Shown here: positions 13,871 through 62,293 of the stretch, in pieces
Layout of the letters: every line of letters starts with the position of its first letter
How positions within the stretch are numbered: position 1 is the first letter of the stretch
Source: Magnolia sinica
Lineage: Eukaryota; Streptophyta; Magnoliopsida; Magnoliales; Magnoliaceae
Length of the DNA: 64,000 nucleotides
Direction of reading: 5' to 3'
NCBI RefSeq assembly: GCF_029962835.1
Contig: NC_080582.1
Coordinates: forward strand, 16,686,032 to 16,750,031
The notes under the pieces: model-generated
Seen by the model: only the letters and a program-made list of their open reading frames with translations
Databases searched by the model: none
Told to the model about the DNA's origin: nothing
Translations under genes and position numbers: made by a program

Positions 13871-13879
13871 TTAAATTTC

Positions 13880-22500: not shown

Positions 22501-23535
22501 CTCAAGATGCAATTCGTCACATTCTTTTGAACTTGCTATAAAAGATGATATATAAAGACAGCTCAAAGAGCAGAAAAAGGACAAATCAACCATCCAACAC
22601 TCTGGACCATTGGTTTTTTTTGTGAGTTCATAAGATTTCATGGAACTCCGTGTGGTAATGGGCTTATGGACAATGCTAAAAGCAGAGTTATTTACATGCA
22701 CTTGTGGCCTACCAGATGACCAGACGGCTGATTTTTGGTCAAGGAATGTTCTCCCTAGACGTCCTGCCTGATGAATAGCTCTGGTCCTACATATCATGGT
22801 AGCACATATCAGTAGGGCCCTTCTCCATCTTGTGTGTACATGTTCACCCTTGAGAAACGTGTAATCAATTACAAGATTTTTATGGGCCCTGTTGAGTAGG
22901 ATGTCATTTAAGCATGGATATGAAAACTTCCTGGAAATGGATCAACGTCAAACAAAAACAAAAAAGACCCAAAAAAAAAAAAAAAAAAAAAGGAAGAAGC
23001 AAGGAGGTCAAAATGTACATTGTTTGTTTTTCAAATTAATTGCCATCAAAATGAGCCTGAGGTCAATGGTCAGAAGCAAGAGCCGTCTAAAATTATCATG
23101 GAAATGACTGTAGATAAGATTTTTTGGAATAAAATTTAAAAGATACTTTTCTAAGGAAAAGTAAGACCACTGGAGTCGATCTCCGCAACTACTCTCTCAG
23201 CCGATTGCTTGCTAGCTTCAAAGCTTTTCTTGCTGGCTTCAAAGCTTAAAGTAAACTGATGGGCAGGTTAAGGCCTTCTATACAACAAAGGACTGGGCTA
23301 CAATGAGAGTCGGTCCCCTTTTTTGTGAACAAATACATAGATGCTTGTTTGTGAGCAAGTACATTGATGCTTGATCATCATTCAAACGATCCATTTGTAA
23401 GAATTTTTCTTTATTCATTGTTTTACCCCATGAATCTTCGACTCTATGGATAAAATAGAATAAGATAAAATACAATAAATGGCCCAACAGTCGGATACTA
23501 GAACACAAATCAGGAAATCACAGATTGTAGCAAGT

Positions 23536-23585
23536 CCCCCTCCTGATCTCTCGAATTCCTCCCCCTCCTGATCTCTCGAATTCCT
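23536..23585. repeat. 25-bp tandem duplication present only in copy 1
   Basis: The unit CCCCCTCCTGATCTCTCGAA with TTCCT occurs twice here and once (as CCCCCTACTGATCTC) in the other copy near 51410, so it arose or was lost after the duplication. Confidence 0.9.
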
Positions 23586-24062
23586 CCAGGCCATGTGGAG
23601 AAGGCAATGATTGGTCAGTGGCATCAGCGAGCTTGGGCAAACAGCAATTCCGGATTTTATAAATAAAATTAGGTCAGATAGGGAACTCAATTATGAATAT
23701 CCACCCTTGCTAAGCAGCGTGTAACAATCCTTGATTTCATATCCTTGTGTCCATGAACCTTCCAATTTAGAAAGGATCAATCTACAAGGCCACTTTTCTT
23801 TAATAAAACTTGATACCATATCTTGATATGATAAATGACATTACAGAGACGCCTAATCTTAAGATTCCGTGTAGTCACATCTAACTCAAATCCTGAGCAT
23901 GTAACAACCTTTCTTCCAATAAAAACGGGGAAAAACATGAATCCTGTGGGGAAAGAAATTCCAAACAGGTAATTACTAAAGAGACCCTAAGGTCAACAAC
24001 ATGATCGTCCACCTTAGAGACGAAATTCTGTCCTTCTCATCTTCAATGTCTAGGTTCCAAGG

Positions 24063-24653
24063 TAGAGCTGTACACGGGTCGAGTTAGCTCGGTCAGCTCG
24101 CTTGATTCAACTCGGAAAAGCTCCACTCTTGAAATTGGATTCGGACCGAGTCAAGTGGGTTTTTGGTGCTCTTTGAGCTTGCCCGAACTTGACTCAACTC
24201 AGATCGAACCTCAACTTGAACTGACTCGGATCGAATCAGCTTGCTGACTCGGTTATTTTGATATGAATACTACTTGCCGACTGTTTGATGAAATGACTTA
24301 ACGAAGTGTTCGTGAGAAAGGAATGGATATGTCGGCTGTTTGATTTTGATGTTGCTCACCTGGGTGTTTGATTTTGATGCTGCTCTCTAGGTGTATGATG
24401 AAATACCTGTAAAATATTGTTACTGTTTTACATTCTATGACAAATTGAAGATGCATTCTACTTGTTTCAGAAAATGCCGAACAGGCTCAAACTAGCTCGA
24501 ACTGGCCCGGGCTGCTGACCGAACCAAACCGAGCCGAGCTAGCAAGAGAGGCTCAAGGACCGAACCTAGTCGAGTTCCAGCTGGGGTTAGCTATTGGCCG
24601 ACCCAAGCCGAGCTGTGCCAAGCTCAACTCGGTTCGAATCCTGTACAGCTCTA
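24063..24653. mobile_element. hAT-type MITE with 8-bp target duplication
   Basis: A 591-bp element with termini TAGAGCTGTACACGGGTCGA and CGAATCCTGTACAGCTCTA in inverted orientation. It is flanked by an exact 8-bp duplication TTCCAAGG (24055-24062 and 24654-24661). The 8-bp duplication and TAGAGCTGTACA ends indicate the hAT superfamily. Inside are GAGTTAGCTCGG-like and CGAACTTGACTCAACTC-like repeats and no transposase. Confidence 0.92.
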
Positions 24654-25304
24654 TTCCAAGGAGACTTTAGTAAATCTCTTTTTAAAAATAAAAATAAAAA
24701 GAAAAACAGAAGAAAAAGAAAAGAAAAAGGCATCCCACATCACTTGCAATTTCAAAGGAAAAAGACTGGGAAATGACCATTTCTGTTTTCTGAGCTGCCC
24801 CAAATGAATGGCAGATGGTTCCACGAAACCAAAAAGCATGTACTAAGGTGAGAGTCAAATGGACACTAAATCAAGAGGCGTGTCAAAAGTGTGGTAAAGA
24901 AACTAGAAAAGCTTACAAGTTCAACACAGTATGCTTCAGTGTCTTCTTGACAATTTGTGTAAAGTAAACCACATGGGACAGGATATGGCACATTGTCTAT
25001 GGTTTTTTTCCCATAATCAACAGGTCACCTCTATTTCTTGCTGGAAATATTTTCCCTTCTCATAGTAAGCTGGAAATAAACTATTTGCTTGGAACTGTCA
25101 AGTTTTTCTGCAAAACAAATCTGATAATTTGGGCCCTCAAACAAGATAATAAGAAAATAAGACATTTGGAATTTCCTACTCTACTGCAAAACCAATGTCC
25201 TCAGCAGCCGCTTTCCGTTTGTGCATTAGTATATCTCCATCAAGCTTTCCTTCCCACAATGAAAATGACAGCCACAAGATCATCATCATAATACCCACGT
25301 CTGT

Positions 25305-28300
25305 CTACAATGTTAGGCTCTCTGGGTTCTGAATAATCTTCGCAAAGGTCTGAAGGAACGCTGCCAAATCAGCACCATAGACTATTCGGTGATCGGCTGT
25401 AACATTCACCTGAAAAGATTGGAAGAGGATCAGTTACGAATTTTGGTAGCAATCCTTCTATAGGAAGGATCTTTCTATTAACAGACCAAACCAAATGCTG
25501 AATAGATAACATTAAACAATGCTGATGATAGAATCTCTATTACTGATGTTAAGTATCAGAAATTGAAGTAGGAATATACTAAGTTGACTTTTGGACTTAG
25601 ATTACGTGACATGAACTATCATTCATGTAGGATTGGCTGAGGCAATAAACGCCCCTCGTGCATATGATGATGATGATAAGATTACTTGAGAAAGATGTTC
25701 AAAAGCTGTTGAGTTTCAGAATAAATAAATAAATAAGTTGATGGCATAATAAAATGTTACGAAACAACCCATGTAGTGAATCTCTGCCCCCTTGTGACGG
25801 ATCCATGATGCAACCGACTACAGAGAACTAAACGACGATTGAAATGGTTGCAGGATAACCAGCTCACAAACATTGCAAGCAACTCAGCAATAGGACAATG
25901 CAAAGGCTCAAAAATATCAATTCTTCATGAGTATTTCAGTGGGAAAATTGGCACTTTCAGCAAATCTGCGGAAAACTTCTGTTGCTGAGAAACTGAGATG
26001 ACTCTCAAGCTTAAAAGTGAGAGAACAACAATTAATTAACTATGAAACTCCAGCAGTTAGCATTTCTAGTTCCTCCTTTTCTGATAGGTAAGCTGGGATC
26101 AAACCCGAGACCTCAATGTTGGAACACAAGCTGTCTATGGTGAGCTATGGGCTCAAACACCCATATTTATTGATCTTGCGAAATTGGTCTCCTAATCCTA
26201 CAAGAATTCCTTGTTTCCCAAGGAAACTAATCACAAGTCACACAGCATAAAATCCAAGTATAATCCAAAGAAACAAGTAACCAAAAACGAACTTGACGCC
26301 TAAATTGTAGCCTAAGCAAGCATGTCAACTAGAAACTAATATTCATGTGGAACTTTCAAGTGATGAACCACGTCTTCATACTTCCTAATAGTGGGACCAA
26401 TACAAAGTGCAGGTTGGCCTTAGACAACCATGGCCCTCTGTATATATAATGGCAATAGGATCCACGTCACTCATAAAGTGGAAAAACCACATTATGATTT
26501 CTTTATAGCATTCGTACCAAGGGTCGGGGCACCAAATTCCCATTACGCTACTTCAAGCTGGAATTGAAAAAAAAAAAAAATGCAACCACAATTTGAGGGC
26601 ACATCCACATCATGGACACTAGAAGACTATGGGCTTTCCACTTGTTAATACTAATGTTCACACTTCAGTTTTGTACAAGTTATTCGATAACAGTAAAGGT
26701 GGCCATAACAGCCACCGTATTTGCCATTAAAAAGATAAATAACTGTATCAGCCCCATAATGGCCATTACAGGAAAAACAGCCTGTAGCCATAACTGCCAT
26801 TACGAAAATAATGGCCTGTTGAGTAGTTATAGTTATACCAAGTTGCTAACTATACCTCTCATTAGAATCTCAAATCGTGGTTTCGCCTCCACAAGTCTAC
26901 AGGTCCTATTTCATGCTGCCATTTCCCAAGTTTGAACAGAAACTCACAGTATACAATAAATATTATATTTTTGCAGTAGTTACATGATCATTTCAACCAA
27001 ACTTCTGTGATGCTTGGCTTGTGGATCTTTGAATTAGAAGTTTGTCAGCTCCATCTCTTCAGAATTCAATGCTCTACGGGGGGAATAACAGTCCACTATG
27101 GGCCAATATACACATTTTTTTCAAAAAAAAAAAAAAGAAAAAGAAAAAGAAGAAGAGGCAGTAACAGATGTTACCATTACGATATGGGCCGTAACGACTG
27201 TCACAGGCAATACCATAATGGTAACAGCGGCAGCTGTTATAGCCACTGTTAGGGGTTGTTTGGATGCTTGTAAAACCCTTAAATTATAAAGGGATTACAG
27301 GGGCAGTGTATGTTACATTTTTTTCAAAAAACAGAAGAAGAGGCAGTAACAGATGTTACCATTATGATATGGGCCATAACGGCCGTCACAGGCAATACCG
27401 TAATGGTACCAGCAGTAGCCGTTATAGCCACTGTTACCGTTAGGGGTTGTTTGGATACCTGCATTTGCCTGTAAAGGATTTACCAGTTGTAAACACATTA
27501 TAGCTTTTAGTTGTAACCTAAAACCTGGCAAAAAAGCCATGTTTCAGACTACAGGTGAAGTCTTTACCACAAAAAAGACATTATACATAATAGAACACAA
27601 TGGTTGATACACAGTCATGATGTGTGGTAAGCACCATAATGTCTACGGTACATCTAATCCATCCATCATTTGCCCCAAAAAATAATAATATTATTATTAT
27701 TATTAAATAAAACAAAAACAAAAAAACAAGAAAAAAAAGTTTGATTGATCGTCCACCATTAAAAACTTCCAGAATTCATTTGAGGCCCACTATAATGGAT
27801 GGAGAACATCCAAGCTGTCCAGCGCATGCATGCTTTGATGCTCTCCTAGGGCCCCCAGAAAAATCAAATCCTTTTATGTGATTTGTCAATTTTGGTAGAA
27901 TTTACCATCCCAGGCTCTGTGGTGTGAATACCTACTTTATGTATTGTAATCACTTTACAAGTTAGCCAAACACATAATCTGTTTACCTGTAAACAGATTA
28001 CCTCTTAAAAGCCAAACAGAATAGCATGTTAACAGTTTACACCTGAAACTCTTTCCAGGTGTAAAGTGTTTACAAATTGAAACTTTACAAGCATCCAAAC
28101 ATATTGAATACCTTGGGACACTGGATACCATTCTTCACCATCCAATCCATTAATCTAGACAGTCTAGTCCACTGATTTAGATATTCCAGACCACTGATCT
28201 AGACTGCTCATTACGTCCAACGCACATTACATTGGCTAGCATGCAAAGATTATATAAAAATAAATAAATAAATAAAAATTAATCCAAGTGATTAGGAATA

Positions 28301-30998: not shown

Positions 30999-33900
30999 GA
31001 CATCTCTAAGTATGACCTCTTTTTTTATTTATTGAAACATCATAGATTCACAATATGGACCACAATTTAGATGGTCCAGATTGATCTAATATAGTGCCAA
31101 GAATGACGGGGATGAGTCACCACCATTTTAAAATAAGTGTTGAACTAGCATAGGAGAAAAACTAAAAAAGAAAAGAAGATTTTAGGTAGCATACGCTAGC
31201 TGCACTACATTGTACACTACGCAGTCTATGCTACATGTAGTGTACGCTACATGCCCCGTAGCTTACGCTACCTGCATGCACGGCGTAGTGTTTTAACTAC
31301 GCTACGCTACGAGCGCTACTGAAAACACTGATATCATACGTACATATAGCATGTGTGCGTGTGTGCGCGCAAAAGCCATGCTAAGCTATAAGCTATTTTT
31401 TAGTGTGGATTCAAACATCATTTGATGTCAAGTTAATTCTTATAATAGTACCCTCATTCATGTCTTTAATGATGTTAATATATCTTTCTAAGATCCCAAC
31501 CTCCTAATCACATCCACAGTACTCTTTCATATTTAGTTCTACAACTCAATAGAAACGCGTGCAGATTTTTACTCCTCACTAAACTCCGCCCGCCATCAAT
31601 GTCTGTAGAAAAATAGGATGTCATGTGGCTATGAAACACCAAAGTGGGACCATGTGCAAAAGCCATGAGAAGCTATAGCCTATTTTTGAGCATGGATTCA
31701 GACATTATTTGATGTCAAGTTAATTTTTATAATAGCACCCTCACTGATGTCAATATATCTTTCTACAACCCCCAATCTCCTAACCGCCGACATAGGTACT
31801 CTTTCATATGATTTCTCTAGGTCACAGCAAACGCATGTAGATTCTTACTATTCTCGCTAAACTCAACCAACAATGTTTATGTAGAAAAAATGTTTTAATA
31901 GGCAATTCCCCTATCATGACGCCGAACTTACTCTTTTACATCTTTGTTTCTTGGCTAAGTCTTTTGCCCTACCAGCCTCTCCTAGAGCCTCATAGTGTGA
32001 CCCATATGTTTGATCCTTCAATGGTGCAACTCAAAGCGTCTCCTTTCTTGTTGTAAATACATAACTGGTAACGTGAAACTTCTCCTTCACCCATCCTGTG
32101 TTTTCTACTGTCTATAATATTTTCTTGAAAAAATTAGCTACCAAATTAATCCAATTCGCTTATTATCTTCCACATCTATATTGGTATATCATTTGTCCCA
32201 CAGCCTTGCTTTTTTCATACTTGGCCTTAGTTCTTTCTTTGCTTCCATTATTAACTATTTTATATGTTGCGAGGTTGTTCTCATTGCTTCTTCTTTCCCA
32301 CTTTTTATAGACGGACCTCTTTATAAATGTGTTTCATGACCTTGTATTCCAAGAGCAAATTCTTTTGCCACTCTTTTTATACAGTCAAATCATCTCTGCT
32401 TTTTTTCATCTATCCCACAGCCTTGCTTTTTTCATACTTGACCTTAGCTCTTTCTTTGCTTCCATTATTAACTATTTTATATGTTGCGAGGTTGTTCTCA
32501 TTGCTTCTTCTTTCCATGAGCAAATTCTTTTGCCACTCTTTTCGTACAGTCAAATCATCTCTGTTCGCATCTCCACAACTTCTGCTTAGTAACTGCACTT
32601 TCCTCCTTTAACTGCTTTATCGATAAATACCATTATTCTTTCCCAATTTATTCAATAACGGTAACAGTAATTTATAAATAAATAAATAAATAAAATAAGA
32701 ACAGTAACATCCATTACGGTCCACTTTGTCCATAACGGCCATTACAACCCCATAATGCATAATAGTCTCCACAGTTACCGTTAGATAAGAGTGTTAAAAT
32801 GGCTGTCAGACAACCATTTTTGGATGCCCTATTCGTTCCGCTTGAGGTTGATTTCTGCTCTCACCTCATAGAAAATAAAATTTTCAAGCATTTTCTGAAA
32901 ACGCAAAAGTTGCCTCAATTTGATAATTGGTAACACTTCCCACATCAGGCTTTCAAACTTCTACAAGCACATGCAAGTTTTCATCCCCAAAATTCCATTA
33001 AGCTTACTCTATTTTCTTAAAATAAATAAACAGAGTATGTCATGAGGCCATAGCACACCATAGTGATACTATATCAAATGCCACATGAAGTTGCAAGCTA
33101 TCTTAAGCATGAAAAGAAATTGTTTGATTCCGAGTTAACTCGTCCAGAACACATGTTAAGAGAAGAACAAAACAACCAAAACTGCGATCTGACTGTAGTC
33201 TTCCATTTAATAGCACAAATGAAGTAGCAGCAAATTCAGATGCGAGAGTGCGAGAGCGGGAAGCATCCCTTTCAAAATGTAAACAAGTATAAATAGGTAG
33301 GAAGTGGAAGCAAAGCAAGATTTTGTAGCAGGAGCAGAGCAAGATTTTGAAGTGGGAGTAGCACCTAGTTAGAAGGATCCTGCAACTAAGGTCTTCCACA
33401 AGAGCAGCTTGCATGACTATGAACGAATAAATACCACAAGTGCTAAAGGTCTAAGAAATGTAAAAGAGGTATATTTCATAACTTCGCATTAGAAATCTAT
33501 CAAGCTTTGCAACTAATTTTAAGTTTGACAGAGTTGAGCATATAATTGCATATATGTGTGCAATTCTTAGATCTTTGAATAAAAAGTTAATTATCATCAA
33601 ATATAATTGTGTCAACAAGATTTCCAACAAGAAACAATGCTTACCTGCATTTTACTCTTAACGCTGAAGAATCCATCCCCATCGGCCACAACAGTAGGCT
33701 TTGATGCCCCTACAGCCATGATAGCCCCCTGCACATAATCCCAACAAATCAATTATTATGTTTTAAAGCATTGGGGAACATTGTAAGTTACAATCAAGGT
33801 GAGAATCACACTAGAACAACACTTACTTGGCCTGGGGGAAGGATAGCATCAAATCTGTCCACCCCAAACATGCCCAGATTGGACAGAGTAAACGTCCCTG

Positions 33901-35905
33901 CAATAAAATTACAAGTCAGATTCCTCATCCTTTAACATGACTGGAAAAAGAAAAAATCATGAAGCACATGATCATGTTGGAAATCCCAACACACATCACA
34001 TGTTTGCTAAAACCATGGATATCTTTACATATTATGTAGTACACATGATGCATTATTTGTATATACGTGAATTTTCACCCATTTAGTTCCATGACCATGA
34101 TGCATATGGACATCGCATCACATCTTAGGGTCAGTACATCCAATATGAATCAAGCAATACATTATGAATAAAGTTAAACCTGAATTATACTCATGAGGCT
34201 GAAGTTGTTTTGCTCGAGCCTTGTCTACCAGCTCTCTCCATTTTTGAGATAGCAAATAAAGATCCAACTGCATTCAGAGGACAGATGCAAAGATATCATC
34301 TAAGTACGATAACCTAAACACAAAATGGCTTTGAGAATCACCTCACACCCAATCTTCCAATCAACAAGGTGACAGAAAAGGTACCTTATCTGCATCCTGA
34401 AGAACAGGGGTTATGAGGCCACCATCAATAGCCACTGCCACTGCAATATTTACATTGCTATTGTATGTGAAACTCTTCCCATCCTTGCAGCTCGCATTCA
34501 CAACAGGATGTTGTGCCAGCGCCATTGCTGTGGCCTTTGCCAACAGAACAGTCATGGTGACACCCTTCGACTTCACCTGAAAGTCTCACGTAAAATGACA
34601 ATTCGATAAATATGATAAAAGATAGAGCTTCATCTCAACAAGAAAGTTAATTGAATTGCGAACATTCAGTTTAGTCACAGAAATATGACAAAAGTTAATC
34701 AAACTTCCTCACATGTAGCATGACCCTCACATTGCAGCTACATTTCTTCCATGTCCAACATTAAAATGCTCGATTGCCATTTGCAGTTTCCACCTTTAAA
34801 CTAAAAATTGCAATTTAATTTGATATTGCATCCAAATGCATTTCAAGTGTTTGAGATCCAATGCATCCAGTACCATTCCTGTAGTACTATCCAGGGTTCT
34901 AAATATTGTCTGATATGACTCACGCTCAATCCCGCTTAAATAATAAACAAATCAAACTGTTAAAAACATGAAAATTGAAAAGAAGGAAAGGAATAAGAAG
35001 CATACCTTCTCATAGAGCGCATCGAGAGCATCAGTCATTATAGGATAGCCAACGCGGAATGTTGGCACTGAGAGGCTCTCCAACATGTTTTTTGACACCG
35101 CAGCCTGCATGGTTGTGAAAGGGACGACAGTCGAACCGGGAATTTGTGGGAGAGCAGCAGCAGCAGCTTTAGGAGGCAAAGCAGTTGCAGCAGCAGGAGC
35201 AGGAGCAGGAGCAGGCTTTAAATAACCTACATTGTCACTACTCGCTGCTGGCTTAATTCCAGCAGCAGCTTCAATATCCAAAGCAGTTATCCGTCCATAC
35301 GGCCCTGTCCCGACAACTGATCCGATATCGACCTTATGCTGCTTTGCAAGCTTCTTCGCATAAGGAGTTGCGACGGTTTTCCTTGGTCCGTCAGGGACGG
35401 ACTGAGTAGCAACCGTCGCAGCAGGTGGAGGAGAACTCGAAGGAGCAGGAGGTGGTGGTGGTGGTGGAGTAGGAGATGAGGCCGGGGCTTTCGAAGAGGA
35501 AGAAGCCTTGGCTTTAGCTTCTGCAATCTCGTCCTCAGATTCGGCGAGAAGGCCGATGGGGGCCCCAACGGGGGCCGTCTCACCTGCAGGGACAACGATA
35601 GCGGCGAGGATGCCGTCGTAGAAGGTCTCAACGTCCATGTCGGCCTTGTCGGACTCGACAACGACGACACTCTCGCCCTTGGAGAGTATATCACCCTCGG
35701 CTTTGATCCAGGAGACGATCTTGCCCTCGGTCATGGTGGAGCTGAGGGCGGGCATGAAGATCTCGCGGATCTTGGCGCGGACTGTCAGGACTGGGCGGCG
35801 GGGCTGAACAGAGCGCCGGGTGGGCCATGGGATGGGGGTGGAGAGAGAGGAAGAGAAGGAGAGAGTGGGGGAATTGGAGATTTTGGAAATAATAGAAGAA
35901 GCCAT
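25305..35905 (-). CDS. LTA2: Dihydrolipoamide acetyltransferase (E2) of the plastid pyruvate dehydrogenase complex
   Basis: E2 core enzyme that transfers acetyl groups from lipoamide to CoA, supplying plastid acetyl-CoA. Six exons: 35006-35905, 34385-34576, 34180-34267, 33827-33897, 33645-33728, 25305-25409. All have GT donors and AG acceptors and the frames join to 479 residues plus a stop, close to the Arabidopsis plastid protein as I recall it. Residues 1-44 are Ser/Arg/Pro-rich, like a transit peptide. A lipoyl domain spans about 45-122 with lipoyl-Lys87 in ESDKADMDVE. A Pro/Ala linker follows, then a peripheral-subunit-binding domain at about 178-212 (ATPYAKKLAKQH, GTGPYGRIT), a second linker and the catalytic domain from about 258. 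The active-site motif ADHRIVYGAD (His452) has Tyr where many E2s have Asp; I recall this as normal for the plastid type. Start at MASSII is chosen because the transit peptide follows. Intron 5 (25410-33644) is 8,235 bp and full of repeats. Confidence 0.95.
26090..26155 (-). repeat. tRNA-like SINE head (A and B box)
   Basis: On the minus strand TAGCTCACCATAG (A-box-like, near 26147-26135) is followed about 32 bases later by GGGTTTGATCCC (B-box-like, 26107-26096). That spacing suits a Pol III type 2 promoter. The same sequence is in the duplicated copy near 53880-53970. The body and 3' end of a SINE were not delimited. Confidence 0.4.
26239..26690. other. Part of intron 5 without a recognised feature
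   Basis: Apart from a short poly-A run near 26568, no element or coding frame could be named. Confidence 0.4.
26699..26822. repeat. Relic of a TAACGG/CCATTA-rich inverted-repeat MITE
   Basis: GTGGCCATAACAGCCACC, CCATAATGGCCATTACAGG and ATAACTGCCATTACG are degenerate self-complementary words like those at 27160-27437 and 32655-32785. Confidence 0.45.
27156..27455 (+). repeat. Tandem duplication, period 185 bp
   Basis: AGGCAGTAACAGATGTTACC starts at 27156 and again at 27341, each followed by about 110 bp of near-identical sequence ending TAGCCACTGTTA..GGGGTTG. Each unit contains GTAACGG-type self-complementary words. Confidence 0.85.
27443..28107. mobile_element. PIF/Harbinger-like MITE (right end degraded)
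   Basis: The left end TTA + GGGGTTGTTTGGATACCTGC and the right region CTTTACAAGCATCCAAACA are inverted counterparts. Subterminal words TTTACCTGTAAACAG and CCAGGTGTAAAGTG repeat the GTAAAG/CTTTAC theme. It resembles the element at 20851-22024 in design. The right terminus is worn. Confidence 0.6.
28290..29225 (+). repeat. Degenerate tandem array, unit about 155 bp, about six copies
   Basis: The word GGGATATGCATTAGTGGGAT + GAGTTCCACA recurs near 28294, 28504, 28644, 28801, 28959 and 29083. Each time it is followed by TGCATGAATTTC, TCCTAAAT.GGCC, ACTATTCATC.GAATTT and TTTCTTGAG.GAAATGGTGTC. Spacing is about 157 bp in the best-kept part. The units are 70-85% alike by eye. Non-coding satellite-like array in intron 5 of the E2 gene. 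Confidence 0.88.
29226..29950. other. Part of intron 5 without a named element
   Basis: AT-rich, with an (ATT)n(AAT)n palindromic microsatellite near 29760-29790 and a G-run at 29630-29641. No coding frame is supported. Confidence 0.45.
29950..30430 (+). repeat. Diverged duplicated block, copy 1 of a pair
   Basis: Sequence around CTTTTTATACAATTAGCCATCTCTA and GCCAAGCATTTTCTAAAAC, then AATAATTGGCAGAAACTTCC, has diverged counterparts at 32340-32400 and 32884-32945. The minus strand reads in places like protein (EPKAEERMMPTYSISLQAQ) but no family was recognised. Confidence 0.5.
30752..31331. mobile_element. Inverted-repeat element rich in GTAGCGTA words
   Basis: The left end AATGTTTTAAATAGCGCGTA and the right end, read inverted (AGTGTTTTCAGTAGCGCTCG), form terminal inverted repeats. 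Subterminal regions are built from repeated GTAGC/GCTAC words (for example CTACGCTACGCTACG near 31300). No coding sequence. A Mutator-like fold-back MITE is a reasonable guess, but no 9-bp target duplication could be confirmed. Confidence 0.6.
30941..30997. repeat. (TC)n microsatellite
   Basis: About 28 uninterrupted TC repeats inside the inverted-repeat element. Confidence 0.98.
31371..31617 (+). repeat. Direct repeat pair, copy 1
   Basis: It starts AAAAGCCATGCTAAGCTATA and continues through TTTGATGTCAAGTTAATTCT to GTCTGTAGAAAAATAGG. It matches 31658-31892 at roughly 80%. Confidence 0.8.
31658..31892 (+). repeat. Direct repeat pair, copy 2
   Basis: It starts AAAAGCCATGAGAAGCTATA and follows the same order of blocks as 31371-31617. 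A third, shorter relative (GTCATGAGGCCATAGCACACC) lies near 33035. Confidence 0.8.
32194..32575 (+). repeat. Tandem direct repeat, period about 216 bp
   Basis: TCCCACAGCCTTGCTTTTTT and the 100 bp after it (including TTTTATATGTTGCGAGGTTG) occur near 32197 and 32413. AGCAAATTCTTTTGCCACTC occurs at 32353 and 32518. The two units are over 95% alike, so this duplication is recent. Confidence 0.9.
32655..32785. repeat. Short TAACGGTAAC...GTTACCGTTA MITE relic
   Basis: The ends AATAACGGTAACAG and CAGTTACCGTTAGA are inverted repeats about 130 bp apart. Inside are ATTACGGTCC and ATAACGGCCATTAC. Confidence 0.6.
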
Positions 35906-36240
35906 CGACGGAGATATAGGAAATGGAAAACACACACTCTCTCTCTCTCCCTTCTAACGCCGAAATTGTATGAAGAGATAGAAATGGGCCCTTCGGAATG
36001 AAATATACAAGTAGAAGAGAGAGAGGGGCGGAGAAGTCGAGGGAGAAGTTGTCTTAGGATATCAGTGGTAACATCGCCCAACCGAGGAGTTAGGAAAGGA
36101 TGGTTGAAACAGGTGAGGGAATTAAGAAAACAAAGAGGAATTATATGATACACCACCGGTATCTTCACAGGTAATACACGTGTTTTCAACTGTGATAAGT
36201 GGGTACAATGATTTGGTAATCCAGGCCATCGCTCGGCTTT
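35906..36240 (-). promoter_or_regulatory. 5' flank and probable 5' UTR/promoter of the E2 gene
   Basis: Upstream of the E2 start (minus strand) lie a CT-rich tract (plus-strand ACACACTCTCTCTCTC at 35930-35948) and GAGAGAGAGGGGCGG near 36017. CT-rich leaders are common in plant housekeeping genes. No convincing TATA box was picked out. A 221-codon minus-strand frame that overlaps this region is a by-product and not a gene. Confidence 0.45.
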
Positions 36241-49512: not shown

Positions 49513-51910
49513 AGGGCTTTGATGGGCTTAATTGCATTTTCGGATTAAGAAAGAACCTATATTTATAGGCAAAAAGTTTGTTCCTTCAACTGGTTTAAGG
49601 TAGTCTTCAATTGGCCTAAGCATCGGATTCAGTTCCAACAAATTTTCAATTTCAAGCGGGATAAGATCTAATAGATCTTCGATTGGTCGAACAAGCTCTT
49701 CGACTGGTTGAGCAAGTTGAATCTGAACTGATTTTAGTTGCTGGACTTCGAGTCAAGGAACCTTCGACTGGTTGAGAAGTCCACTCCACTGGTCGAAGAT
49801 TCAATAGAAAATCTGTTACATTTCGGCTGATGCTTGGACTAGTCGATGAATTCTTAGATTGGTCGAGCCAAGAATTAGACTAGTTAAAACTTAGTCATTT
49901 ATAAGTATAAAAACTCAATTTAAATATGTTTTGAAAACCCCTAAACCTAAGGTCTTCCTATAGTTTAAAATACTTGTATGGACTGAACTTTATAAGATTA
50001 GAAACATGAAGTTTTCAATAGAGCTTGATCTTCTACTAGAATCTTTCAGTAGATCTAGCTTGGTCTTCAACTTAAGCTTAAGCATGAACTTAATTTTGAA
50101 CATGAGCTTGAACTTGATCATGAGCTTAATTTCAACTTGATCATGAGCTTTACTTGAACTTGATTATGAGCTTGACTTCAACATGAGCTTGACTTGAAGA
50201 TCACTTTGCTAAGTTGTTTTGACAAGACGTAACTTGACAAACCAAGTGTAAAATATGCTTTAAACATAATAACACTTACACTATGCATCTTCAGTAGCAT
50301 AAGTGTGTCCCTCTTTAATTGATTTCTCAATGAACGGACGGAAATAAGGAACACCAATAATATATTAGCTTTAGCCGGTTTATAAAATGTCAGCATTAGC
50401 CGCCTCACCTTTGATGTATAGATTGATGTATATATCATTTCATAAATTTATAAGGGCCGCCCAAAAACTCACTAGTTAGGCCCATCATAAAAATGCCATG
50501 ATCCAAAAATCAGTGGTCCAATAATCAGGTGAGAGGCCTCGCTTGTCCGAGAGGAATGATCGGAAAGGAGACTATCAATATTCACCGTGCACTTGTGGCC
50601 TACCGGATGACCAGACGGCCGATTTTTGGTCAAGGAATATTCTCCCTAGATGTCCTGCCTGATGAATAGCTCTGGTCCTACATATCATGGTAGCACATAT
50701 CAGTAGGGCCCTTCTCCATCTTGTGCGTACATGTTCACCCTTGAGAAACTTGTAATCAATTACAAGATTTTTATGGGCCCTGTTGAGTAGGATGTCATTT
50801 AAGCATGGATGTGAAAACTTCCTGGAAATGGATCAACGTGAAACAAAAACAAAAAAGACCAAAAATTAAAAAAAATAAAAAAAAGCAAGGACTCATGTCA
50901 AAATGTACATTGTTTGTTTTTCAAGTTAATTTCCATCAAAATGAGCCTAAGGTCAATGGTCAGAAGCAAGAGCCGTCTAACATTATCATGAAAATGTTGG
51001 AATAAAATTTAAAAGATACTTTTCTATGGAAAAGTAAGACCACTGGAGTCGATCTCTGCAACTACTCTCTCAGCCGATTGCTTGCTAGCTTCAAAGCTTT
51101 TCTTGATGGCTTCGAAGCTTAAAGCAAACTGATGGGCTGGTTAAGGCCTTCTATACAACTAAGGACTGGGCTACAATGAGAGTCGGTCCCCTTTTTTGTG
51201 AGCAAATACATAGATGCTTGTTTGTGAGCAAGTACATTGATGCTTGATCATCATTCAAACGATTCATTTGTAAGAATTTTTCTTTATTCATTGTCTTCCC
51301 CCATGAACCTTCGACTCTATGGATAAAATAGAATAAGATAAAATACAATAAACGGCCCAACAGTCGGATACTAGAACACAAATCAGGAAATCACAGATTG
51401 TAGTAAGTCCCCCTACTGATCTCTCGAATTCCTCCAGGCCATGTGGAGAAGGCAATGATTGGTCAGTGGCATCAGCGAGCTTGGGCAAACAGCAATTCTG
51501 GATTTTATAAATAAAATTAGGTCAGATAGGGAACTCAATTATGAATATCCACCCTTGCTAAGCAGCGTGTAACAATCCTTGATTTCATATCCTTGTGTCC
51601 ATGAACCTTCTAATTTAGAAAGGATCAATCTACAAGGCCACTTTTCTTTAATAAAACTTGATACCATATCTTGATTTGATAAATGACATTACAGAGACGC
51701 CTAATCTTAAGATTCCGTGTAGTCACATCTAACTCAAATCCTGAGCATGTAACAACCATTCTTCCAATAAAAATGGGGAAAAACGTGAATCCTGTGGGGA
51801 AAGAAATTCCAAACAGGTAATTACTAAAGAGACCCTAAGGTCAACAACATGATTGTCCACCTTAGAGACGAAATTCTGTCCTTCTCATCTTCAATGTCGA
51901 GGTTCCAAGG

Positions 51911-52501
51911 TAGAGCTGTACACGAGTCGAGTTAGCTCGGAAAGCTCGCTTGATTCGACTCGGAAAAGCTCAACTCTTGAAATTGGAATCGGACCGAGTC
52001 AAGCGGGTTTTAGGAGCTCTTTGAGCTTGCCCGAACTTGACTCAACTCAGATCGAACCTCAACTTGAACCGACTCGGATCGAAGCAGCTTGGTGACTCAG
52101 TTATTTTGATATGAACACTACTTGCCGACTGTTTGATGAAATGACTTAACGAAGTGTTCGCGAGGAAGGAATGGATATGTCGGCTGTTTGATTTTGATGT
52201 TGCTCACCTGGGTGTTTGATTTTGATGCTGCTCTCTAGGTGTATGATGAAATACCTGTAAAATATTGTTACTGTTTTACATTCCATGAGAAATTGAAGAT
52301 GCATTCTACCTGTTTGAGAAAATGCCGAACAGGCTCAAACTAGCTCGAACTGGCCCAGGCTGCTGACCGAACCAAACCGAGCCGGGCTAGCAAGACAGGC
52401 TCGAGGACCGAGCCAAGTCGAGTACGAGCTGGGGTTAGCTATTGGCCAACCCAAGCCTAGCTGTGCCAAGCTCAACTCGGTTCGACTCCTGTATAGCTCT
52501 A
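51911..52501. mobile_element. hAT-type MITE, duplicated copy
   Basis: Same element as 24063-24653 and the same length (591 bp). Left duplication TTCCAAGG (51903-51910), right TTCTAAGG (52502-52509) with one change. It was carried along by the segmental duplication, not inserted separately. Confidence 0.92.
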
Positions 52502-53124
52502 TTCTAAGGAGACTTTAGTAAATCTCTTTTAAAAAATAAAAAGAAAAACGCATCCCACATCACTTACAATTTCGGAGGGAAAAAACTGGGAAATGACCAT
52601 TTCTGTTTTCTGAGCTGCCCCAAATGAATGGCAGATGGTTCTACGAAACCAAAAAGCATGTACTGAGGTGAAAGTCAAATGGCCACTAAATCAAGAGGCG
52701 TGTCAAAAGTGTGGTAAAGAAACTAGAAAAGCTTACAAGTTCAACACAGTAAGCTTCAGTGTCTTCTTGACAATTTGTGTAAAGTAAACCACATGGGACA
52801 GGATATGGCACATTGTCTATGGTTTTTTTCCCATAATCAACAGGTCACCTCTATTTCTTGCTGGAAATATTTTCCCTTCTCATAGTAAGCTGGAAATAAA
52901 CTATTTGCTTGGAACTGTCAAGTTTTTCTGGAAAACACATCTGATAATTTGGGCCCTCAAACAAGATAATAAGAAAATAAGACATTTGGAATTTCCTACT
53001 CTACTGCAAAACCAATGTCCTCAGCAGCCGCTTTCCGTTTGTGCATAAGTATATCTCCATCAAGCTTTCCTTCCCACAATGAAAATGACAGCCACAAGAT
53101 CATCATCATAATACCCACGTCTGT

Positions 53125-53229
53125 CTACAATGTTAGGCTCTCTGGGTTCTGAATAATCTTCGCAAAGGTCTGAAGGAACGCTGCCAAATCAGCACCATAG
53201 ACTATTCGGTGATCGGCTGTAACATTCAC
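53125..53229 (-). pseudogene. Orphan copy of the E2 terminal exon
   Basis: All 105 bases match exon 6 of the plastid E2 gene (VNVTADHRIVYGAD to the stop), including the TTTTCAG acceptor and the adjacent 3' flank. The other five exons are not duplicated, so it cannot make E2 alone. It keeps an intact acceptor and stop and could serve as a trapped 3' exon for a minus-strand transcript entering from higher coordinates. No evidence of expression is available here. Confidence 0.93.
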
Positions 53230-54052
53230 CTGAAAAGATTGGAAGAGGATAAGTTACGAATTTTGGTAGCAATCCTTCTATAGGAAGGATCTTTCAATTA
53301 ACAGACCAAACCAAATGCTGAATAGATAACATTAAACAATGCTGATGATAGAATCTTTATTACTGATGTTAAGTATCGGAAATTGAAGTAGGAATATACT
53401 AAGTTGACTTTTGGACTTAGATTACGTGACATGAACTATCATTCATGTAGGATTGGCTGAGGCAATAACGCCCCTCGTGCATATGATGATGATGATAAGA
53501 TTACTCGAGAAAGATGTTCAAAAGCTGTTGAGTTTCAGAATAAATAAATATGTTGATGGCATAATAAAATGTTATGAAACAACCCATGTAGTGAATCTCT
53601 GCCCCCTTGTGACGGAGCCATGATGCAACCGACTGCAGAGAACTAAACCACGATTGAAATGGTTGCACGATAACCAGCTCACAAACATTGCAAGCAACTC
53701 AGCAATAGGACAATGCAAAGGCTCAAAAATGTCAATTCTTCATGAGTATTTCAGTGGGAAAATTGGCACTTTCAGCAAATCTGCGGAAAACTTCTGTTGC
53801 TGAGAAACTGAGATAACTCTCAAGCTTAAAGTAAGAGAACAACAATTAATTAACTATGAAACTCCAGCAGTTAGCATTTCTAGTTCCTCCTTTTCTGATA
53901 CGTAAGCTGGGATCAAACCCGAGACCTCAATGTTGGAACACAAGCTTTCTATGGTGAGCTATGGGCTCAAACACCCACATTTATTGATCTTGCGAAATTG
54001 GTCTCCTAATCCTACAAGAAATCCTTGTTTCCCAAGGAAACTAATCACAAGT

Positions 54053-55287
54053 ACCATTTTTCTTTAAAAATTAATAAATTTAGAAAATTTTGTGGCCCCA
54101 CATAGTATGTGTATGACATTCAAGTTTATCAAACATATACAACTAACCATAATGATCACACGGAACCAATGATAATGATTTCATGACTAGAAACCTTTCT
54201 GATTGGATCATTGGATGGGCTGCAAGTGCATTTTGATGTTTTTAAGTGGTATATTTTATTTTATTTTTATGGTGTGGGTCATCTTCCATTTACATTGACC
54301 AAATTTTTGCTCTTCTCAATATCACACTAGATTACATTATTCAACTGGTTGGATATTATAAAAATATAATATGGGCCCAAAATTCTCCACTTTATCACTT
54401 TCTAAAGAAAAAGTGCATGGTGGGTATTATGATAATATCACCACCCAAAAAGCACTTCTCCATCATTTCATTCATGGGGACATTAGTTGGTAAAATCCCA
54501 ATTTTTTATCAGATAATATTTTACGTTATTATGCCAGTAATTTAAAACTGCTTATATTTTGAAAACTCACTATAATATTATTTATCTTATTTCCCACAAT
54601 AGTACCTTGAGATTTTCAACATAATAGATCTTTGTCTCACTGCTAATCCTCCGTTGACAAGCTCACTGCGATTGCCAACCTTTTCCGATGATTTTGTTCT
54701 GCAAGGCAACTCTGTAAAAACCAGTGCTTACACCCTAAGAATCTCACCCTATTTGAATTTCTGGCCCTTCCAGCAATGGATTTGTCTAAACATAATGTTG
54801 AAATTGCAGTCAATAAGATAAAGATCACATCCTTGTGGATGCTTGTTCATGCATATTGTCTGATACCTACAAATTAGAGAGACCATTCAAATGCCTCATG
54901 CATCATACTTCTTTGGTTTGTCCTTCACTGTATGAGTCGTAACCAGTGTGACAAACATCACCTATAACATCACAAAGTATATACTGAACTATTTGTTATG
55001 TGAATATATATTAAAATTTAAAATTATTTATATTAAAAAAAAATATCGATGAGATTTTTGAAATAATCTTCCAAGAAAAACCTCAAATTTTGAATATCTC
55101 CCAAAAAAATTGCAGAGAGCGGGGTTTGTCACTATGGTCTCAACCGAGCATTGACGGGCCTTGATCTTTGACCTGTAGATGGCAGCAAATGGTATCAAAT
55201 ACAGGTTTTTAGCTTAAAATGTAACTTGTCCCCACTACTGATCTGGCCTTAGGTATATGGCCCATCCACATGGTGAATCAAATGGTC
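54053..55287. other. AT-rich intergenic stretch
   Basis: No recognisable gene or element between the duplication junction and the copia target site. A minus-strand frame at 54643-54828 has no familiar motif. Confidence 0.5.
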
Positions 55288-55292
55288 CCAAG

Positions 55293-55520
55293 TGTTAGAA
55301 TATTTGTGTATGTTAGAATATTTGTGTGATCTTGTTACCATACGAGTGCCAGAATATTAATATCATAATCTCTAGCACATTACGATATTATTCTTTGTAT
55401 TTATTGTCTTTCTATAATTGTTTGGCCTCATTCACATATAAATAGGCCCTCTTTGTATAGTTTAAACACACATTGAAATATGGAATTTCTAAGACAATCT
55501 CTCTCTTTATTTCTTCTTCA
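55293..55520 (+). repeat. 5' LTR of the copia element
   Basis: 228 bp from TGTTAGAATATTTGTG to TTTCTTCTTCA. The first 18 bp (TGTTAGAATATTTGTGTA) are tandemly repeated at the start. A TATA-like CACATATAAATAGG lies near 55433. Confidence 0.9.
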
Positions 55521-55533
55521 TGGTATCAAAGCC
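55521..55533 (+). other. Primer-binding site, initiator-Met tRNA type
   Basis: TGGTATCAAAGCC immediately after the 5' LTR matches the common plant copia site TGGTATCAGAGC. Confidence 0.88.
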
Positions 55534-58500
55534 AAGTTCTTGTGGCCTATAAATTTTATTTTATTTTTTTTCGGCGAATTTTCGGCGCTCTCTCTTTGTG
55601 AAGATAGCAGCTATTTGGAGTTCTTTTCCGCCTTTTTGCAGTCCGATCTAGAACTTTAAGTCTAGAAACAGATTCGCACTGTACGGGACTTTCCTCCCGT
55701 GAAAGCTCTCCGCCTATCTCCGCCTCACGCGCCAACTGTGTTACATCTGCCACGTGTCTCATTCTGCAGTGACACGTCAGCCCTAGCTAGCTTACGCCAC
55801 CTTCAATATGTCTCAATCTGCCTCGAGTCTTGATTCAATTGTCCACCTATTGATCTTCTATTGGATGGATCTAATTATAGTCTATGGGCTCAGAATATAG
55901 AAGTTTTTTTTATACTACGTCGATTATGACGTTATGTGACTGGAGCAGTCCCTCAACCTATGCAGAATGACAGTGAGAAAGAAGATACCTTTGCATCTCG
56001 TCAAACGGGTTAGCTGCTTGGGATGGGCCGTAAAGTTGGACTTCTTTTCGAGCTCTCAACCACTTCAATGGCTGCTGTCATCGTCACTTCCAGTTTATGG
56101 CTCTCCCAATTGGGTCATGCTTTGCTTCCACGTATGTGTTCAGTTCTTGGCCTCTCAGGGTCATCTAAGATCGGTTAATTTTCAATCATTTGATTATGTT
56201 TCATGTCGTCTTGGAAAGCAGACACATTTGTCCTTTAATAAACGTGAATCTTTTTCTTCTGCACCTTTTGACTTAGTCTATTCTGATATTTGGGGTCCCG
56301 CCCTGATTTTGACTGAGGGGAGATCTCGAGATTTTGTTATCTTTGTAGATGATTATAGTCGTTATACTTGGATTTATATATCTTTTACAGCATCGGTCTG
56401 AACTCACAAATGTTTACCATAATTTTCTCAAAATGGTACAAACTCAATTTTCTTGTATCATTAAAATTTTTCGTTCAAATAATGCTATGGAATACAAAAA
56501 TAAATATTTTCTTACCCTTTTACAACAAAATGGAACAGTCTCTCATCATTTTTGTCCCTACACCTCTCAACAAAATGGTTGAGCAGAACGTAAGCATCGT
56601 CATATTCTAAATACGGTAAGAGCACTTCTCATCTCTGCTTCTCTTCCAGAAGGGTGAAGATACTCTCACTGCTATATACACTATCAATTGTGTTCCCTCA
56701 CCGACCATCCACAATAAAACTCCTTTTGAGCTTCTCCATGGTACAGTCCCTAACTATTCCTTGCTTTGAGTTTTTGGTTGTGTCTGTTTTGTCACTCTTC
56801 CTATACATGAACGCACCAAACTTGAACCACGATCTAGACTCTGTTGCCTTCTTCGTTATAGTCTCACTCAGAAAGGTTATCGTTGTTATGATCCCATAGC
56901 CAAACGTCTTCGTATTTCTCGTCATGTGGAGTTTTGGGAGCATAAGATGTTTACGAGTCTTTCTCTTTTTCCACAGTGCTCTTCCAGTTATGCTCTTATT
57001 TTAACTGATCCATCTATTGCTCTAGTACCTACCTCCTCTGTAGAGATGCTAAACTCCTCAGACGTTCCTTCTACGTCTGCTGCTAATCCAACTGACACGT
57101 CTGCTAATCCTCCTGCTACAACAACTGCCCCTGAGCCTGTCCAGGTACCTACACTTCGTCACTCCACTAGAGTAAGAGCCCCTCCTTCTCATCTTCAAGA
57201 CTATCATTGTTTTATGCCCTTGCTACTCTTCACGAACCTCACACTTATCGTGAGGCTAGTACAGACCCTCTTTGGCAGAAAGCTATGTCTGATGAACTAG
57301 ATGCTCTTACCAAAACTCATACTTGGGACGTGGTAGATTTGCCTTCCGAAAAGTCTGCAGGTGGTTGTAAGTAAGTTTACAAAATCAAGACTCGGGCAGA
57401 TGGATCAGTGGAATGATACAAAGCTCGCCTTGTTGCGAAGGGTTTCTCTTAGGAGTATGATATTGACTATGAGGAAACTTTTGCTCATGTTGCTCGACTT
57501 ACCTCTGTTAGATCTTTCCTTGCAATAGCTGTTGTGCGTCATTGGCAACTTTTTTATATGGATGTCAAAAATGCCTTCTTGAATGGTGATCTTGCTGAGG
57601 AAATTTATATGCATCCTCCACCTGGCTATGACCATCCTCCTTACAAAGTCTGTCGTCTTCGTCGTGCTCTTTATGGTCTCAAACAGCCCCCTCGAGCCTG
57701 GTTTGCTAAATTTAGTTTTGTTGTTACTCAATAGGGCTTTCTCCCTAATGCATATGACTCTGCACTGTTTCTCTGGACTACTGGTGCTGGTACTATTCTT
57801 ATTCTTCTTTATGTTGATGACATGATCATTACAGGGGATGATCTCCCTGATATTCGCGATCTTCAGCACTTTCTGAGTCAGAATTTTGAGATGAAGGACT
57901 TAGGGTAGCTTAACTACTTCCTTGGTCTTGAGGTGACTTCAGGTTCAGATGGTTATTATGTATCTCAGGCTAAGTATGCTTCTGACTTGCTTTCCAAAGC
58001 AGGCTTAACTGACAACAAAACGTGTACTTCTCCTCTTGAATATAATGTTAAGCTTCTTGCTATTGATGGTGAATCTCTTCCAGATGCCACTCTGTATAGG
58101 CAATTGGTTGGTAGTCTCATCTATCTCACAGTTACTCGCCCAGACATTTCCTACGCTGTTCACTTGGTTAGCCAATTTATGAGTGCACCACGCTCTAGTC
58201 ACTATGTTGTCGTTATTCGTATCTTGCGCTATGTCAATGGAATTTTGTTTTATGGTCTTCACTTTTCATCGCACTCATCTCTTGAGCTCCACTCTTATTC
58301 TGATGCTGACTGGGCCGATGATCCTACCGATCGTCACTCCACTACGGGTTATTGTTTCTTACTTGGTACTTCTCTCATTTCTTAGCACAGCAAGAAATAG
58401 ACTATTGTTGCCCGATCCAGTACTAAGGCTGAGTACCGTGCATTTGCTGATACTACAACTAAACTTTTGTGGCTACGATAGCTTTTGACAGACATGAGTG

Positions 58501-58758
58501 TTTCTCAGCCAACTAGTTCCCCTCTTTATTGTGATAATCAGAACGTCATTCAAATTGTTCATAATGATGTTTTTCATGAACGGACTAAACATATCAAGAT
58601 TGATTGCCACTTCGTTCAGCACCACCTCCAGTAGGGTACACTACATCTTCGATCCATCTCCTCCGAGAATCAACTTGCTGATATTTTCATAAAGTCTCAT
58701 CCACCGAGTCGACTACATGATCTTATTTCCAAACACAAGTTAACTTCATCATCTCAAG

Positions 58759-58770
58759 TTTGAGGGGGAA
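58759..58770 (+). other. Polypurine tract
   Basis: TTTGAGGGGGAA directly before the 3' LTR, as expected for plus-strand priming. Confidence 0.88.
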
Positions 58771-60035: not shown

Positions 60036-62293
60036 TTAGTTGAAGAAATATCTGGCATCAAGTACGTCTTTCAAGTCGAAATCTCCTCGCTCTGGCAGGG
60101 GAGGGAAACTTAATGATGGGAACGATTGCTTGAAGCTCTCCAACAGCTGCATAAATAGAGAACCATACCAACTTTAGATATAGCCGTTGTGATCAATACA
60201 TGGATGGTAGGACTGAAGAAATTATTGTGCGGCCCTCTTGATTGGACCGGCACATGCAGACAACACATTGGGAATCACAGGCACACATGCCAAAGTGGCA
60301 CGTGCATGAGATTTGGGCTATTCATGAATAGGGACCCAACATCAACATGGGCTGCCCCAAAAATCATGCAGTCCACTCATGGTAGATCTTACATGTACCT
60401 TGAATGTGCGCTATGTATGGCCCACTGGATGGTAGACCAGCTTGGAGTTTGGACAAGCACCATGGTTCGGCACACCTGATGAGCTCTGGACAAGTGCCAT
60501 GTGGGCATGTCTGACTGTGTCTCCCGAAGTGCAAGACAGGTTCGCGTTCCTCTTTTGTGAGAATGGCTTTGAATTTTTTAGAAGATGAAAACCCACTCAG
60601 TTTTAGAAGAAGATTTTAAGTATGAAATTTCTCTCAAAGAAAAACACTTTTGTAGCAACAGAAAAATGGGATGCCCTCACAAACCCATGACTATCTGCAC
60701 TAGAATACTTCGTTTAGTTTTTTTTTTTTTTTTATAAGTGGGCTCCACTGGTACCAGGAAGATGTGGGGCCCACATGATGCATTCATGAAATCCAACTCA
60801 TCTATCAAATGTGTCACCTCAGAAAACCCCTGGGACCCAAAACTTGGCCCAATTCAAAACTAAGTTGAGCCACAGAAAAGAAATTGAGGGAACGCCCACC
60901 CTCGAAATTCGTGGGGCCCGCCTGAGTCAAAAACAGCCTGAATATTTGCATTACCATTCCTGGATGAAGGGTCAGAACTGCCTTGATATACACAACACAG
61001 TGGGCCACCACCCTAATCAGTGGTGGGCATTCCCCTCTTAATATGTTCCCTGTGCTACTTGTGGCCCATCTGAGTTTTGGATCAGGCTGCTTTATGGTCT
61101 GGGATCTGCTAAGGCAACGCATCTTATGGACGGGGTGGATTTTGTGAACATATCACTGGGCATCACATCTGCCTGCTACCACTGGAGCATGCCCCTTGAA
61201 ACAAAATTAGAAGCATCTCAGCAGCTATAATGAAATAAACAAAACCACCCACGTAAATGATAATACTCTTTAGAAGTGAAAAGGCTTCACTTCATGGATA
61301 AAGCAGCTTTAAAAAGAGCTGGCTGATCCCTTAATTGTTAGGAAATTTCAGGAACAATACACGAAGGAAAGAAAATAAGTATTGGCTTACAAGTGGTTTC
61401 CATCTTGGCATGGGTAATAGCTTTAGGGTGCGTTTGGATGCAATATTGAACTGCAATTATTCGTCTGATGAGGTGCAAATACCAAATTGTGATTTCCTTG
61501 GCATCCATATTAAGAGTCTAGGCTACTTTCAAGTTAGACTTGAAAGAAGCAAGATGCAACATTAAGGCTTGAGGGCTATTGTCACAATACAAATACTCGG
61601 ATGCATCACTCATCTCCCCCCCTTTTTTAAATCTATTAATTAAATTGAATGTCCCAATTCAATCGACTTGTGCATCCAAACGCAACCTTACTCTCTACTG
61701 TTAGCTGTCCTAATATCCTATTTCTTAATGAGGCCATTCAAAAGTAAAGGTACTTTACATTCTCCAATATTGGTGTTTCATAGAGTTCGACGAACTTTTC
61801 CCTAAGTATCCTGTTCAATTCATCAACATCACATGCATGCGTCCAGTACGAATCATGAACTCCTGCAATCATCAATGATGGAAAAGAAAATTAAAAATAA
61901 AAAGGTTTAACACAGTCGAGAATAGTATCCAACAAGAACAAAAGGAAATCAAGTAACCTGCAAAACTTAAGCCGGCCTTGTTGCAGGCAACTGCAGTCAT
62001 CATCATGTGGGACCCATCAAGTGAGTGGACAAAATTTGGAGGGAAAGCTGTTCTCTGCCGCTTGACCATGACCTGCAGTAGCAAAATTTGTTGAGTTCGA
62101 AATATAAAAATAAATAAACATGATGACATGATATGAACTGCTCATATCCAAATCGAGAATTACAAGATACTTTGACAGTAGGAAGACACATCCCAGTAAC
62201 AACGAACTCTAAAAATGAAAATAGCTTAAAGGAGTAATGAATAACCTTATCAGTTTCCCGTTGTAAAGTCAACACTTGAAGAGATGTTTTAAT
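60036..62293 (-). CDS. RPOT: Phage-type organellar RNA polymerase (RpoT), last four exons; 5' part outside window
   Basis: C-terminal part of the single-subunit T7-like RNA polymerase that transcribes mitochondrial and/or plastid genes. Exons on the minus strand: 62246-62293 ([16 protein letters not shown]), 61958-62072 ([20 protein letters not shown]..), 61759-61862 ([12 protein letters not shown]..), 60036-60146 (LLESFKQSF.. to DARYFFN, then stop). All junctions are GT..AG and phases agree. The [11 protein letters not shown] block and the catalytic Asp in VHDSYWT correspond to conserved T7 RNAP palm motifs (Asp812 in T7). The ending RYFFN is typical of plant RpoTs. RpoTm, RpoTp or RpoTmp cannot be told apart from this part. 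The final intron (60147-61758) is 1.6 kb and carries two repeats. Upstream exons were not found before 64000, so they lie beyond the window. No damage is visible in the exons present. Confidence 0.95.
60740..61165 (+). repeat. Fold-back repeat variant in the last RpoT intron
   Basis: The left arm GATGTGGGGCCCACATGATG + CATTCATGAAATCCA and the right arm GGGTGGATTTTGTGAACATA + TCACTGGGCATC are loosely inverted. The middle has ACAGTGGGCCACCACCC. It belongs to the general GGGCCCACATGATG group but differs from copies A-G. Confidence 0.5.
61426..61687. mobile_element. PIF/Harbinger-type MITE in the last RpoT intron
   Basis: 262 bp with inverted ends GGGTGCGTTTGGATGCA and TGCATCCAAACGCAACC (one mismatch), flanked by TTA on both sides (61423-61425, 61688-61690). 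No transposase. Confidence 0.9.

Follow-up and report, generated by a model that had tools for sequence, protein, structure and literature searches.

What is known about transposons that carry pieces of host genes?

How TIR elements acquire pieces of host genes is an unsettled matter, and close counterparts of our case have been described in animals. The passages of PMC8277862 on which we draw here, covering 100 animal genomes and a fly family, describe single-copy Pack-TIRs that arise by transposition-independent ‘gap filling’, meaning that an old element is broken, that a neighbouring sequence is copied with microhomology as the primer and that the ends are then joined. For the 281 unique animal Pack-TIRs counted in those passages, the donor was on the same chromosome in 59.8%, microhomology (median 2 bp) was present at one or more breakpoints in 190 (67.6%), and the breakpoints lay close together (median 4.6% of element size), with a skew towards the element's interior; the same passages call the origin of plant Pack-MULEs perplexing. 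Pack-TYPE transposons (Pack-MULE and Pack-CACTA) are the subject of PMC8903248, whose pipeline, in the part cited here, drops singletons, and of the review PMC13317346, a portion of which allows for an undiscovered mechanism where unlinked fragments are concerned. In addition, a section of PMC3445842, citing Wicker et al. 2010, deals with the movement of plant gene fragments by double-strand-break repair, with filler DNA coming from SDSA.

The locus that we describe is an instructive example of this already known kind of gene-fragment capture. The window, by which we mean the whole 64-kb stretch of DNA that was analysed, looks like plant nuclear DNA: it has a GC content of 39.7%, introns, retroelement pieces (Pfam Pol_BBD, and RVT_2 below cut-off) and two minus-strand genes near a duplication, whose copies we call A and B. 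Three of the four signs of gap-filled Pack-TIRs named in the passages of PMC8277862 fit B, namely a donor in cis, microhomology and capture after the element had inserted, whereas the fourth, breakpoints towards the middle of the element, does not, since the break at B lies in an arm. Like the Pack-TIRs of those passages, B is a gene piece in a TIR element, with microhomology at one breakpoint and little or no target gap; unlike them, single-copy and from animals as they are, it lies in a plant and is compared from one 64-kb window. With the filler-DNA cases in the cited section of PMC3445842 it shares a genomic piece with part of a gene that fills a repaired break in association with a TE, but there the break accompanies TE insertion, whereas at B it would lie within an old element, with donor and target 24 kb apart. 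As in the Pack-TYPE elements of the cited parts of PMC8903248 and PMC13317346, host coding DNA is found between inverted repeats, with a potential for exon shuffling; B differs from them in showing, within the window, no sign of transposition or of a family.

What was duplicated, and from where?

The duplication itself is real, and its features are as follows.

22697..26238: copy A (source), with the last 0.83 kb of the last PDC-E2 intron, the last exon and 3' flank
50588..54052: copy B (duplicate), 3,465 bp, direct orientation
33645..35953, minus strand: upstream E2 exons (lipoyl, E3-binding and most of the catalytic domain); the coordinate 35953 marks the limit of the open frame and not a start codon
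25305..25409, minus strand: E2 terminal exon in A, VNVTADHRIVYGADLAAFLQTFAKIIQNPESLTL and stop, phase-0 acceptor
53125..53229, minus strand: E2 terminal exon in B, identical to the A exon
24063..24653: hAT-like MITE in A, TIR TAGAGCTGTACA, 8-bp TSD TTCCAAGG
51911..52501: the same hAT-like MITE in B, TSD TTCCAAGG / TTCTAAGG, the right TSD with one change

In a blastn self-comparison, the A/B pair is the top-scoring repeat of the window by far, and consists of two collinear blocks, one of 93.7% identity over 2,006 columns (22697-24700 with 50588-52548) and one of 97.4% over 1,528 columns (24713-26238 with 52532-54052). Aligned end to end, the copies differ by 114 substitutions in 3,465 aligned bases (3.3%), spread over the copy, and by seven indels, in all seven of which the missing bases are on the B side; a 25-bp tandem unit, of which A has two, is among them. 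Collinear similarity between A and B was not detected past the borders on either side, where 588 bp to the left and 1,248 bp to the right of B were compared, and the sole match beyond the borders is a 17-bp inverted one between the right flank of B and the E2 3' region. The first-pass annotation, made from the sequence without database searches, had described 22696-26238 and 50588-54052 as direct repeats with different flanks, and both blastn and the alignment agree, with the left edge of A corrected to 22697. Its distance of 28 kb upstream is right start to start (27.9 kb), but the gap between the copies is only 24.3 kb; likewise, its figure of about 2% for nearby non-coding divergence holds beside the exon, where the part to the right of the hAT-like MITE differs by 2.2%, but not to the left of the MITE (3.6%; Fisher P 0.024 for left versus right) or inside it (5.4%).

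A is the source and B the copy, since the 3' end of an intact PDC-E2 gene on the minus strand lies in A, whereas B has no more of the gene than its last exon and a piece of the last intron, together with about 2.5 kb of downstream DNA. The protein assembled from the source gene has 479 residues, made up of exon 1 (ending ...DALYEK), four more exons and the last exon, and includes a lipoyl domain (E 5.1e-15), an E3-binding domain (1.5e-12) and a 2-oxoacid dehydrogenase acyltransferase domain that runs to residue 478 (2.3e-64). Its best NCBIfam match is TIGR01349, pyruvate dehydrogenase acetyltransferase, the mitochondrial form going by the model name, at 307 bits against a curated cut-off of 445 that it does not reach; presumably this E2 is the plastid form, given its close similarity to the C-terminus of Arabidopsis LTA2. 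The last intron is 8.2 kb long (33644-25410), with its final 0.83 kb inside A, and it also contains tandem arrays of period 159 and 124 at 28604-29168.

A and B do not differ anywhere in the 105-bp terminal exon, stop TAG included, or in the preceding 20 bp, which contain the AG acceptor, just as the first-pass annotation had said of exon, acceptor and stop. This identity is no evidence of selection, since zero differences in 105 bp has a P of about 0.09 at the local rate (Fisher P 0.16 for the exon versus the rest of the right part), and we therefore reject purifying selection on the B exon, a result of 0/105 being expected in about 9% of cases. An asymmetry in CpG decay, as might mark a silenced copy, is rejected too: over the whole segment nine CpG sites were lost by transition in B and 15 in A, so that there is no excess in B.

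The hAT-like MITE is older than the duplication, because it sits at the same place, with its TSD, in both copies. The presence in both of this MITE with its TSD, of intron and of downstream DNA also means that the copied unit was genomic DNA and not mRNA. Retrocopies are marked by a lack of introns, a poly-A tail and a TSD, and this origin does not fit B, which has intron and downstream DNA and at which no TSD was found; Helitrons are marked by a 5' TC and a 3' CTRR end, which were not seen by eye on either strand at the borders of either copy. As a separate observation, made by eye only, positions 26060-26165 inside A resemble a tRNA-derived SINE on the minus strand, with a B-box-like GGTTTGATCCC.

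What did the copy land in?

The new part of the finding concerns the flanks of B, which together make up a single arm of an old inverted-repeat element.

50503..50512, plus strand: candidate left TSD, CCAAAAATCA (tentative)
50513..50594, plus strand: outer part of the left arm of a putative MULE-like inverted-repeat element; outer end 50513 tentative
54053..54056: 4-base filler ACCA at the right junction
54057..54123, plus strand: putative inner continuation of the left arm, TTTTTCTTTA...
54349..54444, minus strand: right arm of the same putative element, with the uninterrupted site ...CACCATGCACTTTTTCTTTA...; outer end 54444 tentative
54445..54454, plus strand: candidate right TSD, CCAAAAAGCA, 9/10 (tentative)

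To the right of B, after the ACCA, the sequence TTTTTCTTTAAAAATT... is one arm of an inverted repeat whose mate is at 54349-54412, and outward of TTTTTCTTTA the right arm reads ...GATATTATCATAATACCCACCATGCAC. To the left, the flank ends ...GAGACTATCAATATTCACCG, B opens TGCACTT, and 50568-50592 of the left arm aligns with the other arm. Joining the two flanks restores one arm, because the sequences on either side of B continue as they do in the mate, and the other arm (54349-54444) would, on the strength of this alignment, supply the empty site for B.

The tests of this target site were framed after the sequence had been seen, and they vary in their force. The joined flanks match the other arm in 69 of 94 columns, with gaps in five of the 94, for a score of 81, which is equalled by only one of 17,078 other 80-base segments of the window used as left flank (the one at 44220-44299). 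When TGCAC was supplied to every control, 157 of 39,884 reached the score; when TGCAC was taken away from the real join, its score fell to 62, which 2,059 of the 17,078 flanks matched. The left flank is a modest match in a 24-base test without the shared TGCAC, where 2,194 of 127,952 24-mers are equally good, while in a 31-base test with the shared bases 72 of 127,938 overlapping positions reach the score, and the matches listed in that test include the site, the arm, and an unrelated sequence of the E2 3' region along with its copy.

Without B the element would be about 468 bp long, and the joined element, in a version that lacked two bases at the seam, has a more stable fold than 100 of 100 mononucleotide shuffles (z -4.7), a control that is lenient. 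A candidate TIR, GTGGT..., at 50513 and 54444 matches in 10 of 14 positions and has a 10-bp TSD with one mismatch outside it, a combined score that was reached by none of 60 random region pairs in a wider scan and by six of 1,000 in a narrower one. A TSD of 9-10 bp would suit a Mutator-like element. The outer ends and the TSD are nevertheless tentative, because the outer arms are unequal in length, with 80 bases on the left and 32 on the right before the T run. As the arms are 73% alike by column, whereas A and B are 97% alike, the target element would have been old when B arrived. Host gene sequence lies between two arms of what we read as one TIR element, one of these arms being interrupted by the captured piece.

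Another view, in which a MITE with its own left end near 54057 merely adjoins B, was tried and set aside: it offers only TSDs of 3 bp and 2 bp, for ends that lie off the arms, and the nested reading joins both flanks. We saw no convincing second copy of the target element in the window. A candidate relative near 59.3 kb, with 30 bases at 83% by blastn and a shared 17-base word, was rejected after poor gapped alignments on both strands, and a search for the TIR pattern in viral contigs gave no matches, which is uninformative for a plant.

What do the junctions say?

At the left junction, donor (...TTTACATGCACTTGTGGCC) and target arm (...CACC(G/A)TGCACTTTTTC) have 7 bp in common, TGCACTT (50588-50594), which is microhomology of a length (at least 7 bp) seen in 0.08% of 200,000 simulated random junctions. 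The right junction is without microhomology, and runs from the donor's ...CACAAGT through ACCA into TTTTTCTTTA, as in the other arm. Both ends have what is expected of break-repair filler, that is, microhomology or short filler at the junctions (7 bp on the left, 4 bases on the right), around DNA copied from elsewhere at a target whose unbroken form can be read from the other arm.

The inverted 7-mers that the first-pass annotation pointed out are indeed there at the borders, ACTTGTG at 50591-50597 and CACAAGT at 54046-54052, and such a match at both borders would arise by chance in 0.15% of random border pairs with 3 bp of tolerance, or in 0.26% with 5 bp. They had been taken as a hint of a mobile or break-repair origin, and what survives of this is a specific copying event by break repair, to which the empty site, the microhomology and the filler point, rather than the 7-mers as ends of a mobile element, given that no TSD was found at B and that the ends of A are the same although A is the resident end of a gene. 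Scanning near the ends for exact repeats of at least 4 bp, or of at least 8 bp with one mismatch, gave none at B and only TAAAA, AGCA and AAAA at A, all displaced by 5-15 bases from the ends. The left border is explained without a transposon end, since ACTTGTG overlaps the target microhomology. We think that the 7-mers look more like microhomology plus chance than transposon ends, as a preference and not an exclusion, and the inverted match of CACAAGT at the right border is then a coincidence at the 0.15-0.26% level, which we count against the repair explanation.

How might the copy have been made?

In the explanation that we favour, and think probable, a dormant MULE-like MITE was patched by templated repair, with B copied into it in cis, which would make B a Pack-TIR formed by gap filling. 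This old miniature inverted-repeat element would have been broken within its left arm, and the broken end, ...GTGCACTT, would have paired over the 7-bp microhomology with TGCACTTGTGG, a donor site that lies downstream of E2, some 24 kb off on the same DNA molecule or on its sister. Synthesis would then have copied some 3.5 kb, through the E2 3' flank, the last exon and part of the last intron, before the new strand was joined to the other broken end, with four bases gained and none evidently lost from the target. What the DNA itself shows is that the segment is duplicated, that its source gene is intact, that the target is an inverted repeat for which an empty site can be predicted, and that donor and target share microhomology. 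What we infer is the agent, a break followed by SDSA-like copying (through polymerase theta or fork switching), and which way the copying ran. Formally, B and the element together are a Pack-TIR made in situ, with no sign so far of function or exon use.

Other explanations have to be weighed against this one. The 3.5-kb unit might itself be mobile, either as one element that has ACTTGTG and CACAAGT as its ends or as a composite in which two elements enclose the last exon, in which case B would be a transposed copy; the 7-bp inverted match at both borders of both copies, seen in 0.15-0.26% of random pairs, speaks for such a unit, but we regard it as very unlikely, because no TSD was found at B or at the ends of A, because the E2 gene has its resident end in A, and because the left end coincides with the target microhomology. 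To our knowledge, moreover, ends of this kind fit no superfamily. Equally improbable, we think, is that B goes back to a larger duplicate, segmental or of the whole gene, which deletions and insertions then cut down to its present size: B is contiguous genomic DNA with intron and flank, and seven of seven indels have their missing bases in B, as trimming would have it, yet there is no collinear homology to A in the 588 bp to the left and 1,248 bp to the right, and the sequences to either side of B fit a single arm that was interrupted.

Capture during active transposition, either by repair of an excision gap or by the arrival of a loaded Pack-MULE, would leave the same anatomy, with a captured gene piece between inverted arms and a candidate 10-bp TSD, and the unit from TIR to TIR might then be multicopy. 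We consider this unlikely too, if a little less so, because the arms agree in only 73% of columns, whereas A and B are 97% alike, so that the element looks long dead at capture, and because the donor is in cis. That the A/B pair is an assembly artefact is hardly credible, given that the 3.3% divergence is scattered along the copy, that there are seven indels, and that the other arm independently predicts the target site. Returning to the templated patch, whether it amounts to gene capture in a plant by a dormant DNA transposon without transposition, through a break in an old MITE arm and a microhomology-primed cis copy of the end of a neighbouring gene, is to our minds evenly balanced. If true, this would be a plant demonstration of the gap-filling route described for animal Pack-TIRs, and would leave behind a ready-made last exon as well as two direct repeats poised to duplicate or delete E2. 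Both the donor and the empty target that we infer can be read within about 32 kb, so the gap-filling route is testable here.

What could the duplication do next?

The two copies form a 3.5-kb, 97% direct-repeat pair that flanks all E2 exons but the last, and may be a substrate for unequal crossing over. A crossover between A and B would delete those exons or yield a second complete E2 gene, the latter because each copy carries the last exon, and repeats that flank most exons of a gene of central metabolism predict changes in copy number.

A further opportunity lies with the upstream neighbour of B, of which the window holds the following.

60036..61862, minus strand: last two RpoT exons (61862-61759 and 60146-60036), with their own stop; upstream neighbour of B on the same strand

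The C-terminal piece of RpoT is recognised by Pfam RNA_pol (1.6e-46), its stop is at 60036 and the B exon lies 6.8 kb further on. The first-pass annotation had seen in B a ready-made 3' exon downstream of RpoT on the same strand, which is correct as to position and strand but amounts to an opportunity only, as RpoT has its own last exon and stop and a Copia-type LTR element lies in between (55293-59012, plus strand, 5-bp TSD CCAAG). The LTR parts of this element are about 90% alike over 200 bp, and its assignment to Copia is by the RVT_2 match, itself below cut-off. The last introns of RpoT and E2 both read as phase 0, so an RpoT transcript that bypassed its own last exon and spliced into the B exon would stay in frame; the resulting RpoT-E2 fusion, unsupported as it stands, would be phase-compatible and would swap the last 36 polymerase residues. 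Elsewhere in the window, positions 9962-14063 hold a cluster of diverged inverted and direct repeats, mostly 75-82% alike, with one short pair at 98%.
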